From assembly GCA_019637105.1 (NCBI GenBank), contig JAHBWF010000030.1, positions 1-60,621 of the forward strand: a DNA stretch of 60,621 nucleotides, in the 5' to 3' direction. Positions 18,412 through 58,808 of this stretch are shown here, piece by piece. This DNA is from Labilithrix sp. (GTDB lineage: Bacteria > Myxococcota_A > Polyangia > Polyangiales > Polyangiaceae). A program made the position numbers and the translations under genes. Under the pieces are notes generated by a model. That model ran no database searches, had not been told where the DNA came from, and worked only from the letters and a program-made list of their open reading frames with translations. The first letter of the stretch is position 1. Each line of letters opens with the position of its first letter.

Positions 18412-18427
18412 GGACGTCGGCCGCGGC

Positions 18428-21483: not shown

Positions 21484-22153
21484 GAGCGACCTCCTCGGCG
21501 TCGACGGCGGGCTCCGCCGGCGCGCCGGCCTCCGCCGCGTCGACGGCGAACGCCGCAGGTGGGCCGGAGCGGCCTCCGCCGATCTCGCCGGGCGGGGACC
21601 ACGCAGGACCACGGAGGCCCGGCGGGGGCCGGTCCGGGGTGAACTCGCACGACCGCCCCGCGTTGCGGACGAGCGCGGCGATCTCGCGGCGCTTGAGCGC
21701 GCTCGCGGCGACCATCCCCTGCCCCTTCACCTTCTTCAGCTCGTCGTCGGCGATGAGATCGCCGCTCTTGCGCGTGATCGGCCCGGTCAGGTCCGTCGCG
21801 CCGAACCCGAGGGCCACCTGGGCCAGCTCGAGGCCCTGCTCGCCCCAGTCGACGCCGACGCGGGCCCCGATCGGGCCGGTGACGCGCGCGACGGCGACGG
21901 CGCGGAGCAGCTCGAGCTCGCTCGCGGCGTCGCGGATCCACTGGACGCCGCTCGACGCCGCCGGGTGCACGTGCACGACGTCGCCGGCCTCGGAGGCGCG
22001 CACCAGGTCGGCGACGGCGCCGAGCGCCAGCAGATCGATCTCCCCGAGCGACGCGACGAGCGCGCGCACCGCGTCGAGATCGCCGCGCGCGCGCGCCGGG
22101 AGCACCGGCGCGAGGCCCGCGCGTGCGATGGCCTGCTCCACGAATCGCGTCAT
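21476..22153 (-). CDS. MqnE/MqnC-like protein lacking the radical-SAM core
   Basis: 225 residues, no cysteine triad. Two blocks resemble the MqnE encoded just downstream. Residues 26-52 (LDAVRALVASLGEIDLLALG) line up with the MqnE N-terminal helix pair containing VALFHEPDLLAVGQLA. Residues 80-168 (LELAQVALGFGATDLTGPI) line up with its C-terminal VAQIALRFGADDIDGTIV region and the following AGR. The SAM/cluster barrel between them is missing, replaced by about 25 residues. A Pro/Ala-rich tail follows. The gene is tightly coupled on both sides (ATGA with ubiX, 8-nt overlap with mqnE) and is not visibly degraded, so it looks maintained. Possible accessory or scaffolding subunit (inference). Confidence 0.72.
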   Translation of the reverse strand: MTRFVEQAIARAGLAPVLPARARGDLDAVRALVASLGEIDLLALGAVADLVRASEAGDVVHVHPAASSGVQWIRDAASELELLRAVAVARVTGPIGARVGVDWGEQGLELAQVALGFGATDLTGPITRKSGDLIADDELKKVKGQGMVAASALKRREIAALVRNAGRSCEFTPDRPPPGLRGPAWSPPGEIGGGRSGPPAAFAVDAAEAGAPAEPAVDAEEVAHA

Positions 22154-22767
22154 GATCGGCCTTCCTTCTTCACTCGCGAGGTCTCCTGTTCCGAGGGCCC
22201 CCATCGCTTCACGAGATCGTGCTCGAGCCCGAGGTGATCGAGCACGCGGCCCACGACCGTGTCGAGCAGCGAATCGACGCCCTCGGGCTTGCCGTAGAAC
22301 GACGGCATCGCCGGGAGGATCGTCGCGCCGACGCGCGCGAGCGCCGTCAGGTTCTCGAGGTGGATCACCGAGAGCGGCGTCTCGCGCGGCACCACGACGA
22401 GCGTGCGGCGCTCCTTGATCATCACGTCGGCCGCGCGCGTCAGCAGCGTGTCCGAGATCCCGTGCGCGACGCGGGCGCAGGTGCCCATCGAGCACGGGAC
22501 GATGACCATCGCGTCCCAGCCGGCGCTGCCGCTGGCGAACGGCGCCTTGTAGTCGCGCATCCCGTAGACGGGCAGATCGATCGCCTCGCGCAGGTCGCCG
22601 CCGCACTCGAGCGCCCAGACCTCGGGCGCGGTGGCGGAGAGGCAGACGCCGACCTCGACGTCGCCGGCGTCGCGGACGCGGGCTCGGAGATACGACAAGA
22701 GCCGCCGCGCGTACGGAGCGCCGCTCGCGCCGGTGATCCCGACGACGATCTTCTTCTTCCGGCTCAC
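22150..22767 (-). CDS. ubiX: UbiX-family flavin prenyltransferase
   Basis: 205 residues. Makes prenylated FMN, the cofactor of UbiD decarboxylases. The N-terminal IVVGITGASGAPYARRLL is the FMN-binding signature; IVPCSMGTCARVAHG and VVPRETPLSVIHL are also diagnostic. The GTG at 22767 overlaps the stop of the UbiD-MenG gene (GTGA), so enzyme and cofactor maker are translationally coupled. In the futalosine route this protein is also called MqnM. Confidence 0.93.
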   Translation of the reverse strand: MSRKKKIVVGITGASGAPYARRLLSYLRARVRDAGDVEVGVCLSATAPEVWALECGGDLREAIDLPVYGMRDYKAPFASGSAGWDAMVIVPCSMGTCARVAHGISDTLLTRAADVMIKERRTLVVVPRETPLSVIHLENLTALARVGATILPAMPSFYGKPEGVDSLLDTVVGRVLDHLGLEHDLVKRWGPSEQETSRVKKEGRS

Positions 22768-25010
22768 TGGGCCGCCTCCTCGCCTGCTCGCGCGCGCGCG
22801 CGGACGAGCGACGCCATGCCGAGCGTGAGGTCGACGCCGTCGACCGCACCGAAGCCCTCCTCCTCGAGCATGCGCTCGTAGGCCTCGCGCGTGACGAAGC
22901 CCTCCATGCTCTCGGCGAGGTACTCGTACGCCTCGCGGTCCTTCGCGAGCGTCGCGCCGAGGACGGGGAGCGCGTAGCGGAGGCCCGCGCCGTGCACGAG
23001 CCGGGACGTCGCCCGGCGCGGCCGGAAGAGCTCGAGCGTCACGAAGCTGCCGCCGGGGGCGAGCACGCGGCGCACCTCGCGGAGGCCGCGCCGGAGGTCG
23101 GCGAGGTTCCGGACGCCGAAGCCGCAGACGACGGCGTCGAACGCGCCGGCCTCGAACGGCAGCGCGAGCGCGTCGCCCGCCACGCACTCGACCCGCCGCA
23201 CCTTCCCGCGGCCGAGCGCGAGCATCTTCTCCGACGCGTCGCAGGCGACGACGTGCGCCTCGGGGAAGGTCTCCTCGATCAGCGCGGCGAGGTCGAGCGT
23301 GCCCGCGCACAGATCGAGCACCCGCGGACGCGCGCGGGCGGTCAGCGCGGGCCGGAGCATCTCGACGGCGCGCGCGCGCCAGCGGCGATCGATGCCGAGC
23401 GACATGACGCGGTTCACGCGATCGTAGGTGGGCGCGATCCGATCGAACATCTCGCGGTTGCCGTCGGCGTGCGCCGCCGGAGCCGCCGCGCGCCGCGCGA
23501 GCTCCGCCTCGACCTTCGGCGAGCGCGCGGCGGCGCCGAGCGGGATCCCGAGCTCGGACCACATCGCGTCGACGCGCGCCTTCACGGCGTCGCTCTGCGC
23601 GCAGACCTCCGGCCAGTCGCGCTTGTAGCCCTCCTCGGGCCATTTCTTCGTGCCGTCGATCGCCATCTTCCCGCCCCACAGCGCCTGGCTGGCGCCGTGA
23701 TCGAGCTGGTCGACCGGGCCGTCGACCATCGAGACGTCGCGCTTCGGATCGAGGTTCGCGAGGAGCCGCCACGCCACCTCGGCCGTGTTCTGCACGTCGA
23801 CGTCGTCGTCGACGACGCAGACGACCTTGGTGAACGACATCTGCCCCGCGCCCCAGAGGCCGTGCGCGACGCGCGCGGCGTGGAACGGGTACTGCTTCTT
23901 GATCGAGACGATCGCGAGGTTGTGGAACGCGCCCTCGATCGGGAGGTTCATGTCGACCACCTCCGGGAACATCATCCGGAGGAGCGGGAGGAAGAGCCGC
24001 TCGGTCGCCTTGCCGAGCCACGCGTCCTCCATCGGCGGCGGCCCCACGAGCGTCGAGGGGTAGATCGCGCCCTTGCGGTGCGTGACGCAGGTGACGTGGA
24101 AGCGCGGGAAGCCTTCGACCGGCGTGTAGTAGCCGGTGTGATCGCCGAACGGCCCCTCGTCGAAGAGCGGCTCGCTCGGGTCGACGTAGCCCTCGAGGAC
24201 GAAGTCGGCGCACGCCGGCACCTCGAGGTCCACCGTCTTGCAGCGCACGTGCTCGACCGAGCGTCCGCGGAGGAAGCCCGCGAACATCCACTCGTCGATC
24301 CCGTCGGGGAGCGGCGCCGTCGCGGCGTAGGTGAGCGCGGGATCGCCGCCGAAGGCCACCGCGACCTGGAGCCGCTCGCCGAGCTCCTTCGCGCGGCGGA
24401 AGTGCCGCGCGCCGGTCTTGTGGATCTGCCAGTGCATCGCGGTCGTGCGCCGATCGATGCGCTGCATCCGGTACATGCCGATGTTGCGGGCGCCGGTGTC
24501 CGGATCGCGCGTGATGACGTTCGGCAGCGTGAAGAACGGCCCGCCGTCCTTCGGCCACGTCGTCATCACGGGGAGCGACTCGAGATCGACCGCGTCGCCC
24601 TCGAGCACGATCTCCTGGCACGGCGCGCGCGAGGCCTTGCGCGGCACCGCGTGGCTCAGGGCCGGGAGCTTCCGCGCCATCTCGGCGAGCTCACGGGCGC
24701 TGCCGGGCGCCTTCGAGTGGACGAGCTCGGCGATCGCGCGCGCGTGCTCCTCCAGATCGTCGACGCCGAGCGCGAGCGACATCCGCCGGCGCGAGCCGAA
24801 CGCGTTGATGAGCAGCGGGAACGCCGCGCCCGCGCGCTCGAGCCCGCGAGGCGCCTTCGGGCGCTCGAAGAGGAGCGCCGGGCCGCCGGCCTTCATCGTC
24901 CGATCGGCGATCTCTGCGATCTCGAGGTAGGGATCGACCTCGCGCCGGATGCGCACGAGCTCGCCCTCGCGCTCGAGGACGGCCACGAAGGCGCTCAAGC
25001 CGTCGTACAT
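22764..25010 (-). CDS. UbiD-MenG/UbiE fusion: prFMN-dependent decarboxylase + quinone C-methyltransferase
   Basis: 748 residues. Residues 1 to about 495 are a UbiD-family decarboxylase (NIGMYRMQRID, EGPFGDHTGYYTP, GAFHNLAIVSIKK), expected to remove the carboxylate from the prenylated 1,4-dihydroxy-6-naphthoate. From 518 to the end it is a UbiE/MenG methyltransferase (MFDRIAPTYDRVNRVMSLG, SAM motif VLDLCAGTLDL near 565, VVCGFGVRNL), which methylates demethylmenaquinone. The two last steps of menaquinone synthesis are therefore in one chain, normally two genes. First gene of the operon; AAGGAAAAG precedes the ATG. The 26-bp palindrome at 25042 lies just upstream. Confidence 0.92.
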   Translation of the reverse strand: MYDGLSAFVAVLEREGELVRIRREVDPYLEIAEIADRTMKAGGPALLFERPKAPRGLERAGAAFPLLINAFGSRRRMSLALGVDDLEEHARAIAELVHSKAPGSARELAEMARKLPALSHAVPRKASRAPCQEIVLEGDAVDLESLPVMTTWPKDGGPFFTLPNVITRDPDTGARNIGMYRMQRIDRRTTAMHWQIHKTGARHFRRAKELGERLQVAVAFGGDPALTYAATAPLPDGIDEWMFAGFLRGRSVEHVRCKTVDLEVPACADFVLEGYVDPSEPLFDEGPFGDHTGYYTPVEGFPRFHVTCVTHRKGAIYPSTLVGPPPMEDAWLGKATERLFLPLLRMMFPEVVDMNLPIEGAFHNLAIVSIKKQYPFHAARVAHGLWGAGQMSFTKVVCVVDDDVDVQNTAEVAWRLLANLDPKRDVSMVDGPVDQLDHGASQALWGGKMAIDGTKKWPEEGYKRDWPEVCAQSDAVKARVDAMWSELGIPLGAAARSPKVEAELARRAAAPAAHADGNREMFDRIAPTYDRVNRVMSLGIDRRWRARAVEMLRPALTARARPRVLDLCAGTLDLAALIEETFPEAHVVACDASEKMLALGRGKVRRVECVAGDALALPFEAGAFDAVVCGFGVRNLADLRRGLREVRRVLAPGGSFVTLELFRPRRATSRLVHGAGLRYALPVLGATLAKDREAYEYLAESMEGFVTREAYERMLEEEGFGAVDGVDLTLGMASLVRARARAGEEAAQ

Positions 25011-46235: not shown

Positions 46236-48035
46236 TCAGTGGTGGCGGAGGCGCGCGGCCTCGTGCACCGCCTCGACGAGCTCGGCGGCGTCGATGGGCT
46301 TGCCCACGTGCACGTCGAAGCCCGCCGCGAGGGCGCGGTCCGTGTCGCGGTCGGCCGTGAAGCCGCTGACGGCCAGCGCCGCGACCGACGAGTCGAGCTT
46401 GCGGATCTCGCTGATGAGCTCGCAGCCGTCGCCGCCGGGCATCGCCAGATCGCTCACGACGACGTCCGGGGTCCAGCGGCCGAACAGCTCGAGCGCGGCG
46501 CGGCTGCCCGCGGCGCACGCCACATCGGCCCCGGCGCGGCGGAGGATCGTCGCCATGAGCTCGCGCGAGTCCTCCTCGTCGTCGACCACGAGCACGCGGA
46601 GATCGCGCAGGTTGTGGCCGGGGTCCACGACGTGCTCGCTCGGCGCCGCGACGAGCTCCTCGCGCAGCGGCAGGAGCACCGTGAAGGTCGCGCCCGCTCC
46701 CTCGCCCGCGCTCTCGACCGTGACCTTCCCGTCCTGGAGCTCGACGAGCTGCTTCACGATGTAGAGGCCCAGGCCGAGCCCGCTGCGCGCCGTGGCGTAG
46801 TTGCGGTCCTGCGTGTACATCTCGAAGACGTGCCCGATGAGGTCGGGCGCGATGCCCTTGCCGGTGTCGCGCACGAGGAGCCGCACGTGGGCGCCGTCGC
46901 GCCGCGCCTCGACGACGATGCTCCCGCCCGCCGGCGTGTACTTGAGCGCGTTCGAGAGCAGGTTCATCAGCACCTGCTCGAGCCGCTGGCGATCGGCGAT
47001 GACGATCAGGTCGGGCTCGACGGAGAACGCGAGGTCCAGCCCGAGCTCCGTCGCGCGGGGCGTCGCGCCCTCGACCACGCGCTGCGCGAGGGCGCCGACG
47101 TCGACCGGGGCGAGCGCGAGCTGGATCCGGTCGGCGGCCATCCTCGAGATGTCGAGGAGCTCCTCGATCAGGTTCGCCTGCGTCCGCGCGTTGCGCTCGA
47201 TCGTCTCGAACGCGCGGTTGCGCGCCGACTGGTCGAGCACCTCGCGCCGCAAGAGCTGCGTCCATCCGAGGATCGCGTTGAGCGGAGCGCGGAGGTCGTG
47301 CGAGAGGACCGCGATGAACCGGTCCTTGGCGCGGTTGGCGCGCTCGAGCTCCTCGCGCGTGCGCCGCTCGCGGGTCAAGAGCTCGTCCTTGTCGCGGAGC
47401 GCGCGGGCCAGGTCCTGCGCGGGCTCGCCGTTGGGCGCGGCGGGCGCGTGCGCGGCCGGGCGCAGCGTCCAGAGGAGGCGCTGTCCGCGTGACGTGAGCG
47501 ACACGTGGGCGACGACGTGGAGCTCTCCGCCGCCGCGCGGGCGGAGCGCGAGATCGAGCAGGCGCGTCGTCCCGCGCTCGAGCGTGTCGAGCGCGTCGTT
47601 CATCGCGCGGACCGCCCCGGGGTCGATGAACGCCGAGATCGGCTTGCCGCGCAAGAACCGCATCTCCAGGCAGAAGAGCTGCACCGCGGCGGCGTTGGCG
47701 TCGCGCACGACGCCGAAGCGGTCCGACACGAGGTACGCGTCCGGCGCGCGCTCGAAGAGATCGGCGTAGCGCTCGCGCTCCGCCTCGAGGCGGAGCCCCA
47801 TGCGTCCGAGCTCGTCGAGCTGCGCGCGGAGCTCCTCCTCCGCGACGAGCAGCTCCTCGTGCTGCAGGCGCAGCGTGTCGAGCGCTTCGCGGAGGATGGC
47901 GGGATCTTGCTCGAGGCCGGACTTCGGCCCGAGAAGCTTCGCCGTGCGCTCCTCACCCGTCCTCATCGACAGCGCGAACGACTCGACCCGATCGACGAAC
48001 GCGTCCGCTCCCCGACGACGGATTCGCAGAGACAT
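46236..48035 (-). CDS. PAS-domain hybrid sensor histidine kinase with receiver
   Basis: 599 residues, no membrane helix. Order: N-terminal coiled coil (about 48-90), PAS (RYADLFERAPDAYLVSDRFG), HisKA with phospho-acceptor His in LSHDLRAPLNAILGW, HATPase (NLLSNALKYTPAGG, DTGKGIAP, GLGLGLYIVK), and a C-terminal receiver (VLVVDDEEDSRELMA, phospho-Asp in VVSDLAMPGGDG, Lys in GKPIDA). Its ATG and the stop of the CheR-PAS gene share one base (TGATG), so the two are translationally coupled and probably act together. Confidence 0.93.
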   Translation of the reverse strand: MSLRIRRRGADAFVDRVESFALSMRTGEERTAKLLGPKSGLEQDPAILREALDTLRLQHEELLVAEEELRAQLDELGRMGLRLEAERERYADLFERAPDAYLVSDRFGVVRDANAAAVQLFCLEMRFLRGKPISAFIDPGAVRAMNDALDTLERGTTRLLDLALRPRGGGELHVVAHVSLTSRGQRLLWTLRPAAHAPAAPNGEPAQDLARALRDKDELLTRERRTREELERANRAKDRFIAVLSHDLRAPLNAILGWTQLLRREVLDQSARNRAFETIERNARTQANLIEELLDISRMAADRIQLALAPVDVGALAQRVVEGATPRATELGLDLAFSVEPDLIVIADRQRLEQVLMNLLSNALKYTPAGGSIVVEARRDGAHVRLLVRDTGKGIAPDLIGHVFEMYTQDRNYATARSGLGLGLYIVKQLVELQDGKVTVESAGEGAGATFTVLLPLREELVAAPSEHVVDPGHNLRDLRVLVVDDEEDSRELMATILRRAGADVACAAGSRAALELFGRWTPDVVVSDLAMPGGDGCELISEIRKLDSSVAALAVSGFTADRDTDRALAAGFDVHVGKPIDAAELVEAVHEAARLRHH

Positions 48036-49897
48036 CAGCTCACCTCCCCCACGAGGACGATCACCCCCCGCATGCCATCGCCACGAAGCGGGGACACACG
48101 GACCTCGAGTCTCGAGGCATCGCCGCGCGGGCCCCCGCCGTCAATAGTGCACACGCTCTCCTTGCCCTCCTCGAGCGCGGCGCGGAGCGATGCCGCGATC
48201 TCGCCGAACGGCAGCGGCCCCTCGAGGCTCGCGAAGTGCCTTCCGGCGGCGTCGCGCGGGCGGATCCCGAGGAGCTCGCTCATCTTCGAGCTCCACGTGA
48301 ACACGCGCAGCTCGCGATCGAGGACGGCCACGCCGACGTGCAAGCTCGCGAGCACGGCGCCGAACAGCGCGTGCGTCTGGTTCAGCTCCGTCCCGCGCTG
48401 GCGGAGCTCCTCGTTGATGGTCTGCAGCTCTTCGTTCGTCGACTCGAGCTCCTCGTTCATCGACTCGAGCTCCTCGTTCGTGGACCGCAGCTCCTCGTTC
48501 GTCGTCTCGAGCTCGTCGTTCGTGGTCTGCAGCTCCTCGGTCAGGCCCTGGAGCTCGAGGCGCGTCGCCCGCAGCTCCTCGTGAGCGGCCTCGAGCTCGA
48601 GGTTCGCGCGCCGGAGCTCCACCCTGAGGCGGCGCGCTTGGGTGACGTCGAGGAACGTGATCTGAGCGCCGGCGACCGACGGGCCCGAGAGCACCGGCGT
48701 CACGTCGACGTCGAGGAACAACTTCTCGCCGCTCGGGAGGACCCGCTCGACCTCCCTGAGCTGCACGGCCCGACGCTCGATCGCCGCGCGCTCGAAGCAC
48801 GCGTGGAGATCGGCCGAGCCGAACGCGAGCTCGGAGAGCGATCGTCCGACCTCGCGCGCGCCGAGCGAGAAGAGCTGCGCCGCCCTTCGACTCGCGGCGA
48901 CGAGGCGCCCGGTCGGATCGACGAGGACCTGCGCGATCGGCCCCGCGTCGGAGAACGCCGCGCGGAGCCGCGCGCGCGACTCCTCGTCGTGCGCCGGATC
49001 GCCCGCGGCGTCGGCGTAGTCCACGCGCGACGTCGGGCGCCGCCGCGCCGCGCGCTGCGCGCGCGCGAAGAGGCGGAGCTTGAGATCGACGGGGGTGAAG
49101 AGCCTCGAGTGCGAGAGCAGCATCTCCGCCTTCCCGAGGAAGAGGAGGCCGCCGGGGTTGAACGCGGGCTGCAAGCGCTCGAGGAGGCGCTCCTGCGTCT
49201 CGGCGTTGAAGTACATGAGGAGGTTCCTGCAGACGAGCAAGTCGACGCGCGGGATCGGCGCGTCCTTGAGGAGGTCGTGGCGCCCGAAGACGATCTCGCG
49301 GCGCAGGTCCTTCCTGAACACGAAGTCGGAGCCGGACGGCGTGAAGTACCGCTCGACGAGCGGCGGCGGGACGGGCTCGAGCGCCTTCGACGGATACGTC
49401 GCGAGGCGCGCGAGCGAGAGGGCCTCTTCGTCGATGTCGGTGGCGTAGATCTTCACCCGATGGGCGAAGGCGTCCTCGCCGAACGCCTCGCAGAGCACCA
49501 TCGCGAGCGTGTACGCCTCCTCACCCGAGGAGCAGCCGGCGCTCCACACGCGGATCGGCGCGTCGGGCCGCGGGTCCACCATCGCCGGGAGCCGAGCGGC
49601 GAGCGCCTGCCACGCCGCGGGATCGCGGAAGAAGGAGGTCACGTTGATGAGCAGGAGGTTGAAGAGCTGCACGAGCTCGTCCGGGGTCCGCTCGAGGTGG
49701 AGGATGTAGTCGCGGACGGAGTCCACCCCGACCGCGGTCATCCGCCGGCGCACGCGCCGCGCGAGGCTCGGCCGCTTGTGGCCCGAGAAATCGAAGCCTC
49801 GTTCTCGTAGCAAGTAGTCGAGCAGCGCGCCGAGCTCTCGCTCCGCGCGCTCTCCGGCGCGAGCGTCGCCGTCGATGCTCTCTGGTCCGTAGATCAT
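48035..49897 (-). CDS. CheR-type methyltransferase fused to PAS domains and coiled coil
   Basis: 620 residues. CheR N- and C-terminal domains (about 20-275: TSFFRDPAAWQ, IRVWSAGCSSGEEAYTLAM with the SAM loop, LVCRNLLMYF). Two PAS-like domains follow (about 315-430 and 515-610), separated by a long coiled coil with a repeated TNEELxSTNEEL heptad series (about 445-505). This architecture is usually a CheB-CheR-PAS three-domain protein; the CheB part is absent here. The ATG at 49897 has GGAGG seven bases upstream. It is coupled to the hybrid kinase gene. Probably a signalling input module rather than a chemoreceptor methylase (inference). Confidence 0.9.
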   Translation of the reverse strand: MIYGPESIDGDARAGERAERELGALLDYLLRERGFDFSGHKRPSLARRVRRRMTAVGVDSVRDYILHLERTPDELVQLFNLLLINVTSFFRDPAAWQALAARLPAMVDPRPDAPIRVWSAGCSSGEEAYTLAMVLCEAFGEDAFAHRVKIYATDIDEEALSLARLATYPSKALEPVPPPLVERYFTPSGSDFVFRKDLRREIVFGRHDLLKDAPIPRVDLLVCRNLLMYFNAETQERLLERLQPAFNPGGLLFLGKAEMLLSHSRLFTPVDLKLRLFARAQRAARRRPTSRVDYADAAGDPAHDEESRARLRAAFSDAGPIAQVLVDPTGRLVAASRRAAQLFSLGAREVGRSLSELAFGSADLHACFERAAIERRAVQLREVERVLPSGEKLFLDVDVTPVLSGPSVAGAQITFLDVTQARRLRVELRRANLELEAAHEELRATRLELQGLTEELQTTNDELETTNEELRSTNEELESMNEELESTNEELQTINEELRQRGTELNQTHALFGAVLASLHVGVAVLDRELRVFTWSSKMSELLGIRPRDAAGRHFASLEGPLPFGEIAASLRAALEEGKESVCTIDGGGPRGDASRLEVRVSPLRGDGMRGVIVLVGEVS

Positions 49898-50059
49898 GGG
49901 TCGGCCTCCGGCGGCGGCGGCCGCGCGCGAACGCGCCGATCGCGACACGTCGAGCGTCGCCCGCGCCCCGGCGAGCGCTCGCTCACGCGAGGCCGCCCGG
50001 GCGCCAGGCGAGGCGCGCGGTCGAGATCGTCGTCGGTCGGCGCGCGGGCGCCGACGTGA

Positions 50060-51058
50060 TCACCCCGGGTGGAGCAGTCGATCGACGTCGGGCCTGAGCC
50101 GGAAGAGCGCGACCTTCTCGCGGGCGACCGCCCCGAGCCGGCCGAGCGTGAACGCCACCTTGCGACGCGTCTGCGCGAGGCCGAAGTAGTCCGCGTACCG
50201 CGGGCTCATCAGCGAGAGGAACGAGAGCGCGTCGGCGTCGTCGAGCGCCGACGCGTCCGGCTCCCCTTGCACGTGACCGCCGACGAGGGCGCGCACGCGC
50301 AGCGCGTCCGCCTCGGCCACGCCGAGGCCGCGGAGGATCGCGAGCGCGCGCTCGCCGCCGCGCTTCGCCTGCGGGTCGTCGAGCACGCGGTGGGCGCGGT
50401 GCTCGATCCGATCGTGCGAGTCGCCCTCGAGACGGTCGATGTCGTGCAGGAGGGCGGCGATCTGCGGGGCGACGCCGACGTCCGGCGCGATGCGGAGCAT
50501 CCACTGCCACGTGTCGAGCGCGTGCTCGAAATCGGCTCGGAGGAGCGGCTGCGTGAGATCGTAGAGCGCGGCGTGCGCCTCGAGGACCGCGTCGAAGAGC
50601 GGCGTCGACGACGCCTCGTTCCGGCGGCCGACGAGCCGCTGGTACCGCGCCAGGACCTCGAGCGCGACGCCGACCGCGTCGTTGCCGCGGACCGCGAGGC
50701 GACGGAGCGGGCGCGCGTTCTCCACCGCCTCGTCGAGGCGACGGAAGTCGAACGCGCCGCGCCAGGCGAAGTCGTCGATGACGAGATCGTACGAGGAGGA
50801 TCGCTCGACGGGGCTCCGCTCGCTGCGGGGCGCGAGCTCGCCGTAGGCCGGGCGCGTCACGGTGACCGTCGGGAACTCCCGCGCGATCGTCGAGGTGTCG
50901 AGCTCCTCGTCCTCGTCGGCGAGGAGCTGGAGGTCCGCGATCTCGGGCTCGAGCAGCGCGCGCGAGCGGCGGCGGCCCACGCCGGACAGCGGGCCGGTCG
51001 AGACGACGCCCGGGCCGGCGTGCCCCGTCGTGATGTCCTTGCTGACGACCGCGCTCAT
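50060..51058 (-). CDS. HD-domain putative phosphohydrolase (copy A)
   Basis: 332 residues. A helical domain with the HD metal-ligand set: His179 in FEHALDTWQW, His205-Asp206 in AALLHDIDRL, His262 in VGGHVQGE and Asp274/276 in LDDADALSFLS. The first 90 residues are low-complexity, followed by a strand/helix block (LVIDDFAWRGAFDFRRLDE). About half its positions recur in the 288-residue copy B at 55477-56343, and the DNA matches closely near both 3' ends. The start overlaps the stop of the epimerase gene (ATGA). Probable nucleotide or phosphate-ester hydrolase; substrate unknown. Confidence 0.7.
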   Translation of the reverse strand: MSAVVSKDITTGHAGPGVVSTGPLSGVGRRRSRALLEPEIADLQLLADEDEELDTSTIAREFPTVTVTRPAYGELAPRSERSPVERSSSYDLVIDDFAWRGAFDFRRLDEAVENARPLRRLAVRGNDAVGVALEVLARYQRLVGRRNEASSTPLFDAVLEAHAALYDLTQPLLRADFEHALDTWQWMLRIAPDVGVAPQIAALLHDIDRLEGDSHDRIEHRAHRVLDDPQAKRGGERALAILRGLGVAEADALRVRALVGGHVQGEPDASALDDADALSFLSLMSPRYADYFGLAQTRRKVAFTLGRLGAVAREKVALFRLRPDVDRLLHPG

Positions 51059-52170
51059 GACGCCAGCTCCAGCTCGAGCTGCACGTACGACGGGGAGGAC
51101 TTCTTCACAGTCGTGTGCGTCTGGCGGGCGACCCAGTCGAGCAGCTCGAGGAGCCCGGCGTCGAGGCGCCCTTCGGCGCGATGACCGAGGGCCTGCTCGG
51201 CGCGGCTCACGTCGGCGAAGCAGTGCCTCACGTCGCCGATCTGGTACCGGCCGGACACCTCCGCGCCGAACGTCGATCCCCCCGCGACGGCGGCCATCCG
51301 GCGCGCGATCTCGGCCATCGACGTGGCGCGCCCGCTGCCCACGTTGATCACCGCGTGGCGGGTGTCGGCGGTCATCGCGAGGCGACACGCCGAGGCGACC
51401 TCGCGAGCGTCGACGAAATCGCGGAGCTGTCCGCCGTCCTCGGGCAGCAGCGGGCGACGCCCGGCGAGGACGCGCGACGCGAACCGCGCGAGGTCCCCGC
51501 TGTACGGGCAAGAGAGCGACTGGCGCGTCCCGAACACGTTGAAGAAGCGGAGCGCCAGCGTCGGGATCCCGAACGCGCGGCCGAAGCGCAGGCTCATCCG
51601 CTCCTGGTCGTACTTCGAGCCTGCGTAGACCGAGCCCTCGATGGAGGGCGTCTTCGACTCGGGCGTCGCGACCGGCGTGAGGCGGTCGCCGTTGCTCGTC
51701 GGCTCCCACTCGCCGCGACGGAGCTGGTCCGGGCGCCTGCGCGGGATCTCGGTGGGCGAGCCGAACGAGTCGCGATACAGCCCTTCACCGTAGACACACA
51801 TGCTCGAACCGAGGATGAGTCGCTCCACCGACGATCGGACCAGGCGATCCATCAACACCGCGGTGCCGACGTTGTTGGCGGACATGCAGCGATCGACCTC
51901 GAACACGCTCTCCCCCGCACCGACGGCGGCGGCCAAGTGAAAGACGACGTCCATCCCCTCGAGCGCCTTCTCGACGAGCGCGCCGTCGCGCACGTCACCG
52001 ACGATCAACTCGACCTGCGGATCGAGGTACGAGGGACGCTCACCGCCGAGGTGGACCCGCGGCGTGAGGTTGTCGAGCGCTCGAACCGTATGACCATGGG
52101 CGAGCAGCTCGTCGGCGAGGTGCGAGCCGATGAACCCGGCACCCCCCGTGATGAGGACTTTCTTCGACAT
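51055..52170 (-). CDS. NAD-dependent nucleotide-sugar epimerase/dehydratase (copy A)
   Basis: 371 residues. Extended SDR: Rossmann motif VLITGGAGFIGSHLADELL, DVVFHLAAAVG, catalytic Ser in LGSSMCVYGEGLY and the YxxxK pair in SVYAGSKYDQE. Acts on an NDP-sugar, type not determinable. A GGAG lies about 10 bases before the ATG. It is followed without gap by HD copy A, and has a paralogue, copy B, at 57618-58808 with the same special insertion (LRRGEWEP...SNGDRLTPVATPESKT). Confidence 0.86.
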   Translation of the reverse strand: MSKKVLITGGAGFIGSHLADELLAHGHTVRALDNLTPRVHLGGERPSYLDPQVELIVGDVRDGALVEKALEGMDVVFHLAAAVGAGESVFEVDRCMSANNVGTAVLMDRLVRSSVERLILGSSMCVYGEGLYRDSFGSPTEIPRRRPDQLRRGEWEPTSNGDRLTPVATPESKTPSIEGSVYAGSKYDQERMSLRFGRAFGIPTLALRFFNVFGTRQSLSCPYSGDLARFASRVLAGRRPLLPEDGGQLRDFVDAREVASACRLAMTADTRHAVINVGSGRATSMAEIARRMAAVAGGSTFGAEVSGRYQIGDVRHCFADVSRAEQALGHRAEGRLDAGLLELLDWVARQTHTTVKKSSPSYVQLELELAS

Positions 52171-52387
52171 AGTTTGCGACTCCGTTAGAAGAACGACTGC
52201 GCCTTCGCCGCCTCCGAGGGCAGCGAACATCTTGTGGACAATTCCCCCCGCGCATCGCTCGGTTGGAGCTCTCGCGGACGCCTCGCGTGGTGCACTCCGC
52301 ATGCCGCGAAGCGTCGCGGCGTGTCACGAACGCTCGCCTGGGCGCTGAAGCTCAGTGTGAACGGGTGTAGCGAGACGTAGGCTGTAG

Positions 52388-52474
52388 CGTTCTGCCCCGA
52401 ACGGTGCAGTCACGCAGAACGAAATCTCGTTGAATCGACCTCGAGAACTCGCTGAACAACGAATTCTCGCTCCA
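52388..52474. promoter_or_regulatory. Cluster of inverted and direct repeats, candidate operator
   Basis: CGTTCTGC (52388-52395) and its complement GCAGAACG (52414-52421) flank 18 bp. Next come TCTCGTTGAA (52425), ACTCGCTGAA (52447) and TCTCGCT (52465), the first two exactly 22 bp apart, about two helical turns. CGAGAA / TTCTCG arms (52442-52469) overlap them. Confidence 0.4.
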
Positions 52475-52477
52475 TCA

Positions 52478-52495
52478 CAGGGAGGTGACACCCTG
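52478..52495 (+). promoter_or_regulatory. Hairpin sequestering a Shine-Dalgarno sequence
   Basis: CAGGG (52478-52482) can pair with CCCTG (52491-52495) around an 8-base loop. The GGGAGG Shine-Dalgarno straddles stem and loop, and an ATG follows directly at 52496. Could make initiation dependent on unfolding; a real gene behind it is unproven. Confidence 0.35.
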
Positions 52496-52720
52496 ATGGC
52501 GATCGGCATTCAGCCCGCTGCGACGGAGAGCCCTCTGAGGCAGCCTCGCTGCAGCGATTGTTCGACGTGCACTGGCCACGCCAACGTTCGACCTCGCCGC
52601 CCCCGGACCATCGCGTGCACTCGGCGGGGCCCATGTCGCCGCTCGATTCGTGGGTTTACCGCGAGCGCAAACAGCTCGCGCACGGCGGTTCCCTCCTCCG
52701 CGCGCTCGAGCGATCCCTGA
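52496..52720 (+). CDS. Possible small Cys/Arg-rich peptide (leader ORF)
   Basis: 74 codons behind a good SD (GGGAGG, 10-base spacing). The peptide has CSDCSTCTG near residue 20 and is Arg-rich; no family was recognised. It overlaps the first 88 bases of the PRT-kinase gene in another frame. It may be a translated leader or chance; codon use is unremarkable. Confidence 0.25.
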   Translation: MAIGIQPAATESPLRQPRCSDCSTCTGHANVRPRRPRTIACTRRGPCRRSIRGFTASANSSRTAVPSSARSSDP

Positions 52721-54339
52721 GCGAAATCCGACGCCTCCGAGCATCCGAGGGAAAGCGCCGCGCTGCGATCGAGGCGCTCGTCTCCGCCGGGGAGCTGGAA
52801 GCCGCGCTGGCCGACGCCGCCGATCCCCTCGAGGAGGCGGTGGCCCAGGCGACCGACGCGCTCGCCGCGGTCGCGATCGGGAGCCCCGTCGATTTGAGCG
52901 TCAGCGCGGAGGCGTTGGCGCACGCGCGTGCGCCACGCAGCCTCGCCATCCGTCCCCCCGAGGGGTTCGCGTGCGGCGCGCTGCACCCCCAGGCGTACGC
53001 GTGCGTGAGCGAGCTGGTCGACACGCCGGAGGCCCTCGTCATCGGAGTGCGCTCGATCGGGACGACCCTGTCGGCGGTCACCGCTGCCGCGCTCCGCGCG
53101 CGGGGCGTGACCGCGCGCCGCCTCACCGTGCGCCCCGACGGGCCGCCGGCGCATCGACGCGTCACCCTCGGTCACGAGGCGTCCGAGGCGATCGCGCGCG
53201 CTCGAGAGCGCGGCGCGACCGTCGTCGTCGTGGACGACGTGCCCGGCCCGAACGGCTCGAGCTTCCTCGCGACCGGTGAGGCCGTCGTCGCCGCCGGCGT
53301 GCCGCGCGAGCGCGTCGTCCTGCTCGGCGGCCGCCAGGTCGATCCCGATCGCCTCCGCCCGCCGTCGGCGGGCGAGCGCTGGCGCGCGTTCCGCACCGCG
53401 GTCGCGCCGTCGGGCGTCTTCGCCCCGGTGCGCTCGGCGGCGCTCGACGTCTCCGGCGGCGCGTGGCGGCCCTTGCATTATGCATGCGCCGAGCACTGGC
53501 CGGCCGTGGTCGAGGCGATGGAGCGGCGCAAGCTCGTCGCGGGCGGCCGGCTCTTCAAGTTCGAGGGCCTCGGCTCGAGCGGCCACGCGGCGCGCCATCG
53601 CGCGTCCGCGCTCGCCGCGGAGGGCATCGCGCTCGATCCGTGCGACGAGGGCGACGGCTGGACGTCCTATCCGTGGGGCGGCCGACCGATGCAGGCCGGC
53701 GATCTCGACGCGGCGCTGATCGAGCACATCGCGCGCTATTGCGCCCGAAGGCCCGCGCTGTGCCCGCTGGTCTCGGCGGAGACGGACCTCACGCCCGTCG
53801 TCGCCGGGGGCGTGGCCGTCCTCCTCGGCGGCGTGTCGGTCGCGGGCTCGCCGCTCGCGGAGCTGATCGCCGAGGGCACGCTCGCGGTCGAGCGCGTGGC
53901 CACGACGGACAGCCGCCTGGCGCCGCACGAGTGGCTGCGGATGGCCGACGGCAGCGTGCGCAAGACCGACGCGATCGCGCACGGCGACGATCCGCTCTTC
54001 CCCGGCCCGACCGACATCGCGTGGGACCTGGCCGGAGCGATCGTCGAGTGGGAGATGGACAAGGCCGCGCGCGAGCGCCTGCTGGCGGCGTACCGGCGCG
54101 CCTCCGGCGACGACGCCGCGAGGCGAATCGACGCGTGGCTCGTCGCCTACGCGGCCGTGCGCGGCGCGTTCAACCTGTTCGCGCTCGAGACCTGCGGCGC
54201 GGCCGAGGCCCGCCGACTCGTCCGCGAGGTCGAGCGCTACCGCGCGGTGGTCGCCTCGTTCCTCGTCGCCGCACCACGCGAGCCGCGCGGGGCGCTCGAG
54301 CCGCCCGAGCCGGAGGCGCCCGAGAGCGGCCGCTCGTGA
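52633..54339 (+). CDS. Phosphoribosyltransferase-like / kinase-like two-domain protein
   Basis: 568 residues, no signal peptide. Residues about 110-235 resemble a type I phosphoribosyltransferase: ALVIGVRSIGTTLSA (PPi-type loop) and the PRPP-loop-like VVVVDDVPGPNGSSF with acidic Asp201-Asp202. Residues about 300-500 resemble an aminoglycoside-phosphotransferase-type kinase: RLFKFEGLGSSG with a possible ATP lysine, then HGDDPLFPGPTDIAWDLAG with the expected catalytic and metal Asp. ATG 52633 is chosen over an upstream TTG. The gene is divergent from the epimerase-A/HD-A pair and may make a phosphorylated ribosyl product; both domain calls are by motif only. Confidence 0.6.
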   Translation: MSPLDSWVYRERKQLAHGGSLLRALERSLSEIRRLRASEGKRRAAIEALVSAGELEAALADAADPLEEAVAQATDALAAVAIGSPVDLSVSAEALAHARAPRSLAIRPPEGFACGALHPQAYACVSELVDTPEALVIGVRSIGTTLSAVTAAALRARGVTARRLTVRPDGPPAHRRVTLGHEASEAIARARERGATVVVVDDVPGPNGSSFLATGEAVVAAGVPRERVVLLGGRQVDPDRLRPPSAGERWRAFRTAVAPSGVFAPVRSAALDVSGGAWRPLHYACAEHWPAVVEAMERRKLVAGGRLFKFEGLGSSGHAARHRASALAAEGIALDPCDEGDGWTSYPWGGRPMQAGDLDAALIEHIARYCARRPALCPLVSAETDLTPVVAGGVAVLLGGVSVAGSPLAELIAEGTLAVERVATTDSRLAPHEWLRMADGSVRKTDAIAHGDDPLFPGPTDIAWDLAGAIVEWEMDKAARERLLAAYRRASGDDAARRIDAWLVAYAAVRGAFNLFALETCGAAEARRLVREVERYRAVVASFLVAAPREPRGALEPPEPEAPESGRS

Positions 54340-54400
54340 CCCGAGCGCGCGCGCTCCGACGCGTCGCGCGCCTCCGGGAGGTCGGCGTCGACCGCGCCGC

Positions 54401-55480
54401 TCACGCGGCGGAGGCGCGGCCCGTCGGGATCGCGCGGGCGAGCTCGACGAGCTCACGCGCGCGGTGCGCCGCCGTGTGCTCGGCGAGGACGCGGTCGCGC
54501 GCGCGGCGAGCGAGCGCGCGCAGGCACGCCGGCGACAGCTCGAGCATCGCGAGGACGTCGTCCACGTCCCGCGCGACGAGGATCTCGTCGGCGGGCGTGA
54601 AGAACGACTCGATCCCGCGCCAGCCCTGGCTGACGATCGGCACGCTGCACGCCGCGGCTTCGAAGAGCCCGCTCGACGGGCAGAACCCGACGTCGGTCTC
54701 CGCGACGCCCGCCCCGTCGAGCGTGAGCCTCGACGCGCCGTAGAAGTCCGCCCGCTCCGCGAGCGGGACGTCGGCGGCCGTGACGACGTTCGAGCGCCGC
54801 GCGACGTCCGCGCCGGCGACGCCGCCGAGCACGAAGCGTCGCTCCGGAGCGCGCGCGGCGACGTCGAGGAGGAGGCGCTCGCCGCCCGAGAGCCCCGCGC
54901 CCGCCGGCGCGGCGAGGCAAGAGAGGTCGCACTCGGGCAGAGGGGGCGGCCACGACGGCCGGAGCGCCGCGACGTCGACGCAGGCGAAGAGCGGCGCGAC
55001 GCGGCGCGCGCCGAGCTCGCGGCGAAAGCGCTCGAGCGCGGCGCCGCCGGCGACGCTGAGCACGAGATCGAGCTCGCCGAGGCCCTCCGCGGGGAGCCAG
55101 GACACGAGCTCGCCTCGATCGAGGCGCTGGAACGTCACCGGCGCGTCGAGGTCGTAGAAGATCCGCGTGCGGCCCGCGCCGAGGACGAGCTCCGTCGCGG
55201 CCGCCGCGTCGGCCTGACACGAGGTGACGATGGCCACGTCGGCCTGCGCGACGGCGCGGCGCGCGCGCGGGAGGACCTCCGACCAGCTCGGGTAGACGAC
55301 GACGTCGTAGCCTTCGTGGCGGTCGAGATCACGATGCGCCGCGAAGTACGGCGTGGCGCGCTCGAAGAACACCGCTTCGTGGCCGTCGGCCGCCAGCGCG
55401 CCCAGGACGCCTCGCCAGAACGCCGCGTGGGCGTTGCCGCGCCCCGACGTCACCGAGAGGCCGAACACGGCGAGCTTCAC
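54401..55480 (-). CDS. CgeB-like glycosyltransferase
   Basis: 359 residues. N-terminal Rossmann domain (AVFGLSVTSGRGNAHA), then FYDLDAPVTFQRLDRGELV with the DxD-like stretch, and a C-terminal GT-B donor domain (GFCPSSGLFEAAACSVPIVS, WRGIESFFTPADEILVARD), as in CgeB (spore-coat-associated) and DUF3880 glycosyltransferases. The GTG start overlaps the stop of HD copy B (GTGA). Probably adds sugar to a surface glycan or a glycolipid/protein; acceptor unknown. Confidence 0.82.
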   Translation of the reverse strand: MKLAVFGLSVTSGRGNAHAAFWRGVLGALAADGHEAVFFERATPYFAAHRDLDRHEGYDVVVYPSWSEVLPRARRAVAQADVAIVTSCQADAAAATELVLGAGRTRIFYDLDAPVTFQRLDRGELVSWLPAEGLGELDLVLSVAGGAALERFRRELGARRVAPLFACVDVAALRPSWPPPLPECDLSCLAAPAGAGLSGGERLLLDVAARAPERRFVLGGVAGADVARRSNVVTAADVPLAERADFYGASRLTLDGAGVAETDVGFCPSSGLFEAAACSVPIVSQGWRGIESFFTPADEILVARDVDDVLAMLELSPACLRALARRARDRVLAEHTAAHRARELVELARAIPTGRASAA

Positions 55481-56343
55481 GCCGCGACCTCGCGGAGCAG
55501 GCGCTCGACGTCGGGCCGGAGGCGGACGCGATCGAGCTTCTCCCGCGCGCGCGGCCCGAGGCGCGCCAGCGTGAACGCGACCTTGCGACGGGTCTGCGCG
55601 ACCCCGAAGTAGTCGTTGTAGTTGGCGCTCGACAGCGAGAGGAACGAGAGCGCGTCGGCGTCGTCGAGCAGGAGCACGTCGGGGTGTCCCGCGGGGAGCT
55701 CGTGAAAGACGATCTCGCGCGCTCGCGACGCGACCTCCCGGCTCACGCCGGCGCCCTCGACCAGCGAGAACGCTCGCTCGACGCCCCTCCGCACGCGCGT
55801 GTCCTTGAGCGACTGGGAGTCCGGCGCCCGATGCTCGATGCGCTCGCGCGGCTCGCGCTCGAGCCGCTCGACGTCGTGAAAGAGCGCGGCGACCTGCGCC
55901 GCAAGCCCCACCTCGGGCTCGAGGCGCAGCATCCACTGCCACGTATCGAGCGCGTGCTCGAGCTCCGCCTTCGCGAGCGGCGACGACACGTCGTAGAGCC
56001 CCGCGTGCGCCCGAAGGAGGTCGTCGAAGACCGCCGACGACGACGCGGCGTTGCGGCGGCCGAGCAGCCGCTGGTAGCGCGTCATCACCTCGCAGGCGGT
56101 GCCCGTGACGTCGTAGCCGCGTATCGAGATGGCGGCGACGGGCCCGGCGCGCTCGATCCTGTCGTCGAGGCTCCGGAGGTCGAACGCCCCGCGCCACACG
56201 TAGTCGTCGACGACGATGTCGCGCGCGTCGCACGCCGGCGCCTGCTCGACCTGGATCGTGGGGAACTCGCGCTGCACGAGGCCCGGGTCGACGACGTCGT
56301 CGCCCACGAGGCGCAGCCGCAAGACCTCGAATCGCTGTGTCAT
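55477..56343 (-). CDS. HD-domain putative phosphohydrolase (copy B)
   Basis: 288 residues. Same family as copy A: YVWRGAFDLRSLDD, His130 in LEHALDTWQWML, His156-Asp157 in AALFHDVERL, His214/220 and Asp228/230 in LLDDADALSFLS. A strong GAGGAGGA lies six bases before the ATG. It is coupled to the CgeB-like glycosyltransferase (GTGA) and follows the GT4 gene by 106 bp on the same strand. The low-complexity N-terminus of copy A is absent, so 288 residues may be the family core. Confidence 0.7.
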   Translation of the reverse strand: MTQRFEVLRLRLVGDDVVDPGLVQREFPTIQVEQAPACDARDIVVDDYVWRGAFDLRSLDDRIERAGPVAAISIRGYDVTGTACEVMTRYQRLLGRRNAASSSAVFDDLLRAHAGLYDVSSPLAKAELEHALDTWQWMLRLEPEVGLAAQVAALFHDVERLEREPRERIEHRAPDSQSLKDTRVRRGVERAFSLVEGAGVSREVASRAREIVFHELPAGHPDVLLLDDADALSFLSLSSANYNDYFGVAQTRRKVAFTLARLGPRAREKLDRVRLRPDVERLLREVAA

Positions 56344-56449
56344 GAATCGTCCTCCTCGCTGGTCTTCACGACGGGCGTCCCGCGACCGTCGCGGTTCGCC
56401 TCCCACGCGCCACGCCGCGTTCTCCTGCGTCGACGGGCCGCGCGCTCGG

Positions 56450-57628
56450 TCACGCTCCGGCGGTCCGGCTCTCGCGGCCCTGCAGGATCGACGTGGGGAT
56501 CCGCCGCCCACGGAGGATCGCGTCGTACAGCTCGCGCATCGCGCGGGCGTTCCGCGCGGGCGTGAAGAGCTGCGCGCGGAGGTTCGCGGCGGCGGCGAGC
56601 TCGGCGCGCCGCGCGTCGTCGGCCGCGAGCCGGGAGACGGCGTCGATCAGGCCGGCCTCGTCGTCCGGGCGGACGAAGACGGCCGCGTCGCTCCAGAGCT
56701 CCCGCGAGCTGGCGATGTCGCCCAGGACGAGCGCCGCGCCCCGGAGGGCGGCCTCGAGCACGGCGAGCCCGAACGGCTCGTACTTCGCCGGCGCCGCGAA
56801 GATCGCAGCGCGATCCATCCACGCCCAGAGCTCGCCCTGCGGCAGCCATCCGAGCAGCTCCACGTTGTCTCGTGCGAAGGCGCGGCTCTCCGTCCGATCG
56901 GCGGCGACGCCCGGCGCCGCGCTCGCGCCGGCGATCTTCACCGGCCAGGGGAGCTTCCCCGCGGCGCGCGCGAGGATCTCCAGGTTCTTCCCGCGATCCC
57001 AGGCGCGGCCCGCGGCGAGGACGAGGCGCTCCCGCTCGCGCCCGGGCGCCGCGGCGACGGCGAGGCCGTTGGGCACGACGGCCGTGCGCGGGAGCGGTCC
57101 GTAGTGGCGCGCGAGGCTCGCGCGCATCGTCCCCGAGGCCACGATCACCGCGTCCGCGGCGCGGAGGCCGCGCTTCACCGCCTCGCGGTACGTCGCGTAG
57201 CGCTCGGGGACGCTCGTCCCCTCCACCGCCTCCCACCACGACAGGAGGCACGAGTGCGCGACGACGAGCACCGGCGCGGTGAAGCCCGCGGCCCCGTGAG
57301 CCGCGCCGTTGAGGTGCACGATGTCGGGGCGGACGCGCTTCTCGAGGTCACGCAGCCAGTCGACGGCGCGCGCGAGATCCGCCCACGGCTCGTGCATCCA
57401 CTCGAGGGCGTGCGTGCTCTCGTGGATCACGAGCCCAGGGATCGCGCGCGCCGCCGCGAGCTGCTCCGGCCTCGGCTCGGGCCCCATCAACGCGAGGTGC
57501 GTCTTGGTCCCCGTCCGCGCGAGCTCGGACGCGAGCGTCACGGCGTAGGTCAACACCCCGGAGACCGCGTCGGCGGTCATGAGGACGGTCTTCGCGAGCA
57601 CGTTGTCGGCAGCTGCGTCATTGAACAT
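56450..57628 (-). CDS. Glycosyltransferase family 4 (GT-B fold)
   Basis: 392 residues. GT4 donor-site motif AKYEPFGLAVLEAALRG with the conserved Glu pair, GRAWDRGKNLEILARAAG and VVPNGLAV. The N-terminal acceptor half has the usual SGVLTYAVTLASELAR loop. Nucleotide-sugar-dependent retaining transferase; acceptor unknown. The gene overlaps the end of epimerase copy B by 11 nt, so the two are translationally coupled. Confidence 0.88.
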   Translation of the reverse strand: MFNDAAADNVLAKTVLMTADAVSGVLTYAVTLASELARTGTKTHLALMGPEPRPEQLAAARAIPGLVIHESTHALEWMHEPWADLARAVDWLRDLEKRVRPDIVHLNGAAHGAAGFTAPVLVVAHSCLLSWWEAVEGTSVPERYATYREAVKRGLRAADAVIVASGTMRASLARHYGPLPRTAVVPNGLAVAAAPGRERERLVLAAGRAWDRGKNLEILARAAGKLPWPVKIAGASAAPGVAADRTESRAFARDNVELLGWLPQGELWAWMDRAAIFAAPAKYEPFGLAVLEAALRGAALVLGDIASSRELWSDAAVFVRPDDEAGLIDAVSRLAADDARRAELAAAANLRAQLFTPARNARAMRELYDAILRGRRIPTSILQGRESRTAGA

Positions 57629-58808
57629 GGGATCCCTCGAGGTTCGAGAGCGCGGCGGGGACGCTCCCCTGGATGTGATCGAGCGCTGCGATCGAGCCGC
57701 GCGTCCCGCCGGCGTCGAGCCGTCCGTCGTCGTGAGCGCTCGCGGCGCGGCGACGCGCGCCGAGCCACCGCGCCAGCTCGACGAGCGCGACGTCGAAGTC
57801 GACGGTCGCGCGGTAGCCGAGCACGGACTCCGCGCGGCGCGTGTCGGGGTAGCAGTGCCGCGGCTCCCCGACGCGATACGTGCCGCTGAGCGCGGGCGAG
57901 AGGTGGGGCCGCCCTACGAGCTTCGCCACCCGGCGCCCGACCTGCGCGAGCGTCCGCCACGCGCCGCTCCCGACGTTGATCGCGGCGCCCGCGGCGCGCT
58001 CCGACTCGAGCGCGAGGCAGAACGCGCGCGCGACGTCGCGGACGCTCACGAAGTCGCGGCGCTGCTCGCCGTCCTCGTGGACGAGCGGCGCGCGGCCGCC
58101 GATGACCTGCAGCGCGATGTCCGCCAAGACGCCGCTGTACGGGCTCGAGCGCGCCTGCCCCGGGCCGAAGACGTTGAAGAGCCGCAGCGCGACGGTGGGG
58201 ATGCCGTGGGCGCGGCCGACGACGAGGCACATGCGCTCCTGGTCGTACTTCGACAGCGCGTACACGGAGTCGAGCCGCGCCGTCTTGGTCTCGGGGGTCG
58301 CCGTCGGCTCGAGCCTCTGCCCGTTCGAGCGCGGATCCCACTCGGCGCGACGGAGCTGCTCGAGCGTGCGCCCGGGCACCTCGCGGGCCGCGCCGGTCGG
58401 GTCGACGTAGAGCCCCTCACCGTACACGCTCATGCTCGAGGCGACCACGAGGCGCTCGACCGGCCTCCGGACGAGCCGATCCATGAGCACGGCGGTCCCG
58501 AGGTTGTTGATCGACGTGCACCGCTCGACCTCGTACATGCTCCGCCCGACACCGACCGCCGCCGCGAGGTGAACGACCGCGTCGATCCCGTCGAGCGCGC
58601 GGTCCACCGCGGCGCCGTCGCGGACGTCCCCGACGATCAGCTCGACCCTCGCGTCGAGGTGCGCCGGCCGCGCCGCCTCGCGGCCGTGGACCTCCGGCGC
58701 GAGGTTGTCGAGCGCGCGGACGAAGTGCCCTCGTTCGAGCAGCGCGTCCGCGAGGTGCGAACCGATGAACCCCGCGCCGCCGGTGATGAGGATCTTCTTC
58801 TTCGTCAT
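57618..58808 (-). CDS. NAD-dependent nucleotide-sugar epimerase/dehydratase (copy B)
   Basis: 396 residues. Paralogue of copy A over its whole length: KKILITGGAGFIGSHLADAL, DAVVHLAAAVG, Ser in VASSMSVYGEGLY, YALSK as the YxxxK pair. It has about 30 extra C-terminal residues. A GGAGGGG lies eight bases before the ATG. First gene of the operon epimerase B - GT4 - HD B - CgeB-like GT. It probably makes the activated sugar used by the GTs downstream. Confidence 0.86.
   Translation of the reverse strand: MTKKKILITGGAGFIGSHLADALLERGHFVRALDNLAPEVHGREAARPAHLDARVELIVGDVRDGAAVDRALDGIDAVVHLAAAVGVGRSMYEVERCTSINNLGTAVLMDRLVRRPVERLVVASSMSVYGEGLYVDPTGAAREVPGRTLEQLRRAEWDPRSNGQRLEPTATPETKTARLDSVYALSKYDQERMCLVVGRAHGIPTVALRLFNVFGPGQARSSPYSGVLADIALQVIGGRAPLVHEDGEQRRDFVSVRDVARAFCLALESERAAGAAINVGSGAWRTLAQVGRRVAKLVGRPHLSPALSGTYRVGEPRHCYPDTRRAESVLGYRATVDFDVALVELARWLGARRRAASAHDDGRLDAGGTRGSIAALDHIQGSVPAALSNLEGSHVQ

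Follow-up and report, generated by a model that had tools for sequence, protein, structure and literature searches.

A seven-gene locus of Labilithrix with paired epimerase and DUF4202 genes as a probable reduced variant of a wider gene set

What might be made by a locus that brings together two sugar-nucleotide epimerases, two HD-superfamily proteins, two glycosyltransferases and a predicted phosphoribosyltransferase (PRTase)-kinase fusion? The question is raised by a 60,621-nucleotide stretch of a Labilithrix sp. draft genome (contig JAHBWF010000030.1, hereafter the window; genome 8.45 Mb, 91.5% complete), in which a first-pass annotation had placed seven such genes within 8.7 kb, all of which were verified at those positions (50060..58808) by gene calls and Pfam searches. 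On the reverse strand are HD A (50060-51058), which has an N-terminal extension and a DUF4202 (HD-superfamily) domain (PF13875, E 1.5e-12) with the H..HD..D residues kept, and epimerase A (EPI A, 51055-52170), an NAD-dependent sugar-nucleotide epimerase/dehydratase (PF01370, E 1.2e-40) bearing the insertion of its subfamily. The forward-strand gene PRTK (52633-54339) encodes a predicted type I PRTase-like N-domain and a choline-kinase/APH-fold C-domain. The remaining four genes are again on the reverse strand: a PF13524-type glycosyltransferase with a GTG start (GT, 54401-55480, E 1.4e-26), labeled "CgeB-like" in the first-pass annotation; a second DUF4202 protein, HD B (55477-56343, E 4.5e-16); a GT4 glycosyltransferase (56450-57628, PF13439/PF13692), for which GTG 57601 is a possible start; and EPI B (57618-58808; PF01370, E 4.5e-50), a paralogue of EPI A. 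An HD gene lies one gene away from PRTK in the window, without direct adjacency.

Stop/start overlaps had been proposed at three of the junctions. Two of these stand, each recurring in three relatives' loci: that of EPI A with HD A (ATGA; also in L027, L030 and L032) and that of HD B with the PF13524 GT (GTGA; also in L029, L030 and L032). The overlap of EPI B with GT4 is doubtful, since the two closest homologues of GT4 were called from the codon matching GTG 57601, nine codons later, and a start there leaves a 16-base gap between the two genes.

The window PRTK had no NCBIfam match, no PDB sequence match and one Pfam match at chance level (E 0.16). Its domains occupy about residues 88-262 (N-domain) and about 258-548 (C-domain). 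In the structural model (pLDDT 92) the C-domain is choline-kinase-like and a conserved catalytic Asp pair was found in it; it is this model that supports the kinase assignment, as ThiK aligned with the C-domain came no higher than 20th of 213 in the control. The modeled fold is shared with the choline/ethanolamine kinase and APH superfamily, from which PRTK differs in having catalytic segments of its own (D-G-R-M-x-P-H-E-W and K-x-D-x-x-x-H) and in being fused to the N-domain. For the latter, motifs and topology suggest PRPP binding, while the sequence statistics are weak: Pribosyltran was matched in 1/61 PRTK members (E 0.012), a rate that certain families equalled by chance. A profile alignment with E. 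coli Apt brought the three PRTase loops into register and was rejected as proof of a PRTase, as it was outscored by decoys in the control, where it came 17th of 213 proteins, and a PyrE profile alignment produced nothing useful. There was no PRTase among the 12 matches of a PDB profile search, headed by choline kinase (E 0.01), nor among the 50 matches listed for each of two fold searches, both filled by the kinase domain, which does not exclude a PRTase fold. An alignment of 61 PRTKs (the window sequence plus 60 of the 77 relatives in the 80 loci that are 480-640 aa long) has a PRPP-loop consensus that includes E202 (59/61), G203 (60/61) and S207 (58/61); the window protein departs from it with D-D-V-P-G-P-N-G, and has P in place of H171 (H in 46/61). 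In Sorangium, by contrast, a PRTK with the consensus loop is present.

That both HD proteins belong to DUF4202 is a link that was absent from the first-pass annotation. The two are 52% identical over 294 aa, and all 19 HD proteins compared match the DUF4202 profile and keep H130, H156 and D157, with D230 present in 18/19. A model of HD B has an HD-type fold, its best structural matches including YpgQ and small alarmone hydrolases, and a Foldseek search with the HD model returned no matches at E <= 0.001. Profile and H..HD..D residues are common to the window proteins and the HD superfamily members of this kind, from which the longer of the compared proteins differ in their extra N-terminal extension.

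The epimerase-HD pair had been thought to have duplicated as a module, in part because EPI A and EPI B (60% identity over 349 aa) share an unusual insertion. The insertion is real but is not unusual: it is present in 14/14 aligned members of the subfamily, including those of Sinorhizobium, Azospirillum and Roseomonas. We therefore rejected it as proof of duplication, an event that it predates as judged from the alignment, and it is the trees that provide the evidence. In the HD tree (19 rows) all A and B copies fall into a single clade (support 100/99), which is restricted to four of the genus's genomes, namely the window's genome (G000), G062, G063 and G066, and each copy is monophyletic (100/100 and 98/95). 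The EPI A copies (from four genomes) and EPI B copies (from three, none having been called in the stretch of G066) are sisters within the genus, with support of 87/98 in a first tree and 79/77 in a second, for which 8 rows were added and 8 distant rows of the first were omitted; an epimerase of G068 branches just outside the pair in the second tree. HD and EPI are thus paralogous pairs probably duplicated together inside the genus. Both duplications fit the same branch, in keeping with the module proposal, and the trees are most simply read as one joint EPI-HD event, with moderate support on the EPI side.

As anticipated from the first-pass annotation, the genes co-occur. Among 109 genomes of the family, which includes Minicystis rosea, HD was found in 20, PRTK in 18 and both in 17 (p = 6e-16); the two lie less than 6 kb apart in 16 of these 17 and about 30 kb apart in G019, and G062 has a second pair separated by 6.7 kb. 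HD occurs without PRTK in G002, G108 and G112 (the last two being weak matches of 44 and 48 bits that are counted in the 20, while a weak match in G021, E 3.9e-4, was left out), and PRTK without HD in G110 only. The possibility that HD and PRTK mostly occur without epimerase or glycosyltransferase neighbors does not hold for HD, as a GT of the window GT's cluster is present in the retrieved stretch of 16/16 HD-bearing loci (14 genomes); a member of the epimerase cluster is present in 12/17 loci examined.

For PRTK the picture is mixed. A genome scan with the PRTK alignment identified 348 relatives, of which the best 80 were kept; their records bear the labels Myxococcota, Acidobacteria, Nitrospirae, Deltaproteobacteria, Gemmatimonadota, Alphaproteobacteria, Bacteroidota, Planctomycetes and others. 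The top matches in named genomes were two MAGs that carry the name Labilithrix sp., at 89% and 84%, followed by Myxococcales bacterium 68-20 at 79%, and on account of these relatives in other genomes we rejected the idea that the locus is unique to the window's genome. Genes of the relatives were called by a codon-based script and some were missed (e.g., most of L075). At least two of eleven core families lie within 10 kb of PRTK in 47 of these best 80 loci, one in 4/80 and none in 29/80; as a control, the query families had zero matches in window bases 1-43000, a single 43 kb piece. DUF4202 of the window type was identified in 12 of the best 80 loci, all Polyangiaceae-type records (BLAST, 1e-8).

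Several relatives' loci contain genes beyond those of the window. Three genes, for a sugar nucleotidyltransferase, a methyltransferase of TIGR04290 and a xylosidase-like hydrolase of PF11790 type, recur, mostly in order, in 8 or 9 of the loci examined, all of a type other than the window's, and 5 loci contain a B12 radical-SAM gene. In Minicystis the scores are 385 bits for the methyltransferase against TIGR04290 (cut-off 300) and 747 bits for the radical-SAM protein against TIGR04295 (cut-off 400). Judged by gene content, this is an uncharacterised set; Sorangium, Acidobacteria and S. meliloti pSymB have it as well, either complete or in part. Its TIGR04290/TIGR04295 context is presumably the "rhizo-twelve system" of TIGRFAMs; our literature search found no paper naming DUF4202, rhizo-twelve, TIGR04290 or TIGR04295, and none on Ter-type PRTase systems. 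The methyltransferase and PRTK co-occur: TIGR04290 is present in 16/109 family genomes, 14 of which also have PRTK (p = 2e-12), with G002 and G022 having it without PRTK. For 20 of the 29 partner-less PRTK loci the genome was checked, and one TIGR04290 gene over cut-off was found outside the examined stretch in 19/20, a raw proportion in which "outside" need not mean distant as several of these loci are on short contigs.

Relatives of PRTK also lie on plasmids, among them those of Sinorhizobium, Azospirillum and Roseomonas (89 records in all, at about 30-35% identity), and a plasmid search for relatives of HD B found none. Annotations in both the Azospirillum and the Roseomonas locus include TIGR04290, an inositol-phosphate synthase and a histidine phosphatase, and those of Azospirillum additionally TIGR04295 and a beta-xylosidase. 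The PRTK homologue on pSymB of S. meliloti 1021 is an ORF spanning about 253.3-255.1 kb of NC_003078. Besides this gene, BLAST of pSymB identified GT4, the methyltransferase, the hydrolase, three genes of epimerase type and three of the clustered GTs, as well as ORFs resembling inositol-phosphate synthase and histidine phosphatase, with no HD, nucleotidyltransferase or radical-SAM match in the 37 kb searched.

The window thus shares with the set, as seen in the relatives, Azospirillum and pSymB, its epimerase subfamily, GT4, PF13524-cluster GT and PRTK. It differs in having two EPI and two HD genes and in three features that are absent from its genome: TIGR04290 (none over cut-off in the draft genomes of the window, G063, G066 and G068, the four that have PRTK without it), TIGR04295 (absent at 1e-30 from the same four and found in G062 and G064) and the xylosidase-like hydrolase (no match in 4/6 genomes, the window's included). 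Because of these three absences we do not class the window locus in the TIGR04290/TIGR04295 set; on its gene content we regard it as a reduced variant of the set, with the caution due to draft genomes. The view that the locus stands alone is not supported, as the wider set is partly named by NCBIfam (TIGR04290 and TIGR04295).

A biosynthetic role, as originally suggested, fits the domains, while the surface or signaling function suggested for the compound is conjectural. The neighbors of PRTK offer a lead as to the chemistry. A phosphohydrolase-type gene of one of six folds adjoins PRTK in 31 of the best 80 of 348 loci, one of which has two such neighbors: DUF4202-HD (6 loci), histidine phosphatase (7), PHP (6), DSP-type (1), PAP2 (2), HAD cluster C28 (6) and the HAD-like cluster C38 (4), whose representative has a weak Pfam match and which in L126 is 574 bases away on the other strand. 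One representative was scanned for each unnamed cluster. The five clustered families adjoin PRTK in 28/80 loci vs. 25/724 non-core genes, the clusters having been picked after PRTK's neighbors were seen; other core genes also adjoin phosphohydrolases (GT cluster 12/82, EPI 5/30, GNAT 3/16, XYL 4/30). On the three alphaproteobacterial plasmids the histidine phosphatase is beside the inositol-phosphate synthase and may act there instead.

Known glycan PRTases transfer ribose-5-phosphate from PRPP, after which a phosphatase acts; the phosphatase is a HAD domain in Hib Bcs3 and C. jejuni Cj1432, while M. tuberculosis and P. aeruginosa, in which polyprenyl-phosphoribose is produced beforehand by a membrane enzyme, use phosphatases of other families (PMC10299916, PMC12096443, PMC11127046). 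By analogy, we propose that the window locus assembles a glycoside or oligosaccharide in the cytoplasm, a reading that we consider plausible though short of probable. We infer its four reactions, along with the identity of the PRTase and the substrate, product and location: EPI A and EPI B would interconvert a nucleotide sugar, GT4 and the PF13524 GT would build the chain, PRTK would add 5-phosphoribose from PRPP, and the HD/DUF4202 protein would take off the 5-phosphate. Our confidence is lowered by the phosphohydrolases that adjoin other core genes and by the occurrence of only part of the set in S. meliloti. The PRPP donor and subsequent phosphatase would be the chemistry of CriT/CrpP, Cj1432 and gPRT-PRP, whereas gPRT-PRP and Cj1432-type enzymes use a HAD phosphatase, and none of these known enzymes is described with a kinase domain. 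The likeness is one of analogy, not homology: a PDB profile search found no sequence match of PRTK to these enzymes. None of the seven genes of the locus encodes a HAD ribose-phosphate phosphatase, HAD neighbors being found in other lineages only, and since the locus lacks such a partner and its PRTase fold is a prediction we do not class it as gPRT-PRP, although it may still work like such a system.

Epimerases and GT4s are generally typical of surface-polysaccharide loci, and the best 80 PRTK loci of the 348 include ABC-type genes (13/80) and, as in many polysaccharide loci, PIG-L (20/80) and GNAT (16/80) genes. The epimerases and both GTs could then make an ordinary exopolysaccharide or O-chain, with PRTK and HD as regulatory or salvage companions. 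We judge this unlikely, though it is the strongest competitor, as Pfam identified none of the seven genes as a flippase or polymerase, nor as a gene for chain length or outer-membrane export, and PRTK and TIGR04290 share genomes even when they are in separate stretches. The synthase adjoining a histidine phosphatase on the Azospirillum and Roseomonas plasmids, the similar pSymB ORFs, the Gfo/Idh and Zn dehydrogenases of the Roseomonas locus and the predicted resemblance of the PRTK C-domain to choline/APH kinases would suit an inositol-type cyclitol glycoside as the product, with the phosphohydrolases acting on inositol phosphate and the PRTK kinase domain phosphorylating the cyclitol. However, just 2 of the best 80 of 348 genome loci have the synthase close to PRTK, and the window's genome has distant synthase matches only (27% identity, E 2e-6), making a cyclitol pathway distinctly improbable. 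A nucleotide-signaling module, in which the substrate of HD would be a nucleotide or an alarmone and the product of PRTK a modified nucleotide, is very improbable despite the modeled likeness of HD B to YpgQ and small alarmone hydrolases, as fold likeness shows no substrate and a glycosyltransferase is present in 16/16 HD-bearing loci.

Returning to the ribosylation proposal, a broader and rather doubtful extension is that PRTK represents an unnamed class of PRPP-dependent PRTase/choline-kinase-like fusions that would ribosylate a methylated glycoside or cyclitol in many phyla, with the partner phosphatase repeatedly recruited from unrelated folds, and that loss of the methylating half, together with a doubling of the epimerase-HD half, may have led one Labilithrix lineage to a different product. 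If so, PRPP, a metabolite of nucleotide synthesis, would feed a widespread glycoside pathway via a domain fusion that is unnamed in Pfam and NCBIfam scans, and unrelated folds would fill the phosphatase step of that pathway. As much of the set is on S. meliloti pSymB, it can be tested in a plant symbiont that is amenable to genetics. Within Labilithrix, the duplicated type of locus is also found in G063 and G066, and G062 has it together with a separate contig carrying methyltransferase, hydrolase and radical-SAM genes.

In the alignment, the predicted PRPP loop (53221-53262) of the window's PRTK, in which a phosphoribosyltransferase-like domain is predicted to be fused to a choline-kinase/APH-fold domain, deviates from the family consensus, unlike those of its three closest relatives, which retain D-E-G-P-G.

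Among the PRTK loci of the best 80 of 348 relatives, many (L055, L095, L105 and others) have a second cassette accompanying the methyltransferase and hydrolase genes, which comprises a PIG-L deacetylase (20/80), a GT (21/80) and a GNAT acyltransferase (16/80) and resembles a step in which an amino sugar is deacetylated and reacylated. In many Acidobacteria, the PRTK gene is preceded by a small gene of ~77 residues that had no Pfam match (e.g., L061, L066, and L067, about 4.7-13.1 kb). Within the same best 80 loci, the cluster of this small gene occurs in 17, an SH3-domain protein, which often also precedes PRTK, in 11 and a nearby DegT aminotransferase gene in 10, and this acidobacterial setting is a second PRTK context, distinct from the first.

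Directly downstream of HD A, the DUF4202 protein gene, and on the same strand, a sensor-kinase-like and a CheR-like gene were recognized by eye (46236-49948). Clustering of the genes in relatives' loci showed that clusters of both types keep this position in three genomes of the genus (G062, G063, and G066), and for this reason the two genes may be regulators of the seven-gene locus. Elsewhere in the window, an ORF run on the minus strand (16220-25010) resembles by eye a menaquinone pathway of the futalosine type that includes UbiX/UbiD-like genes.
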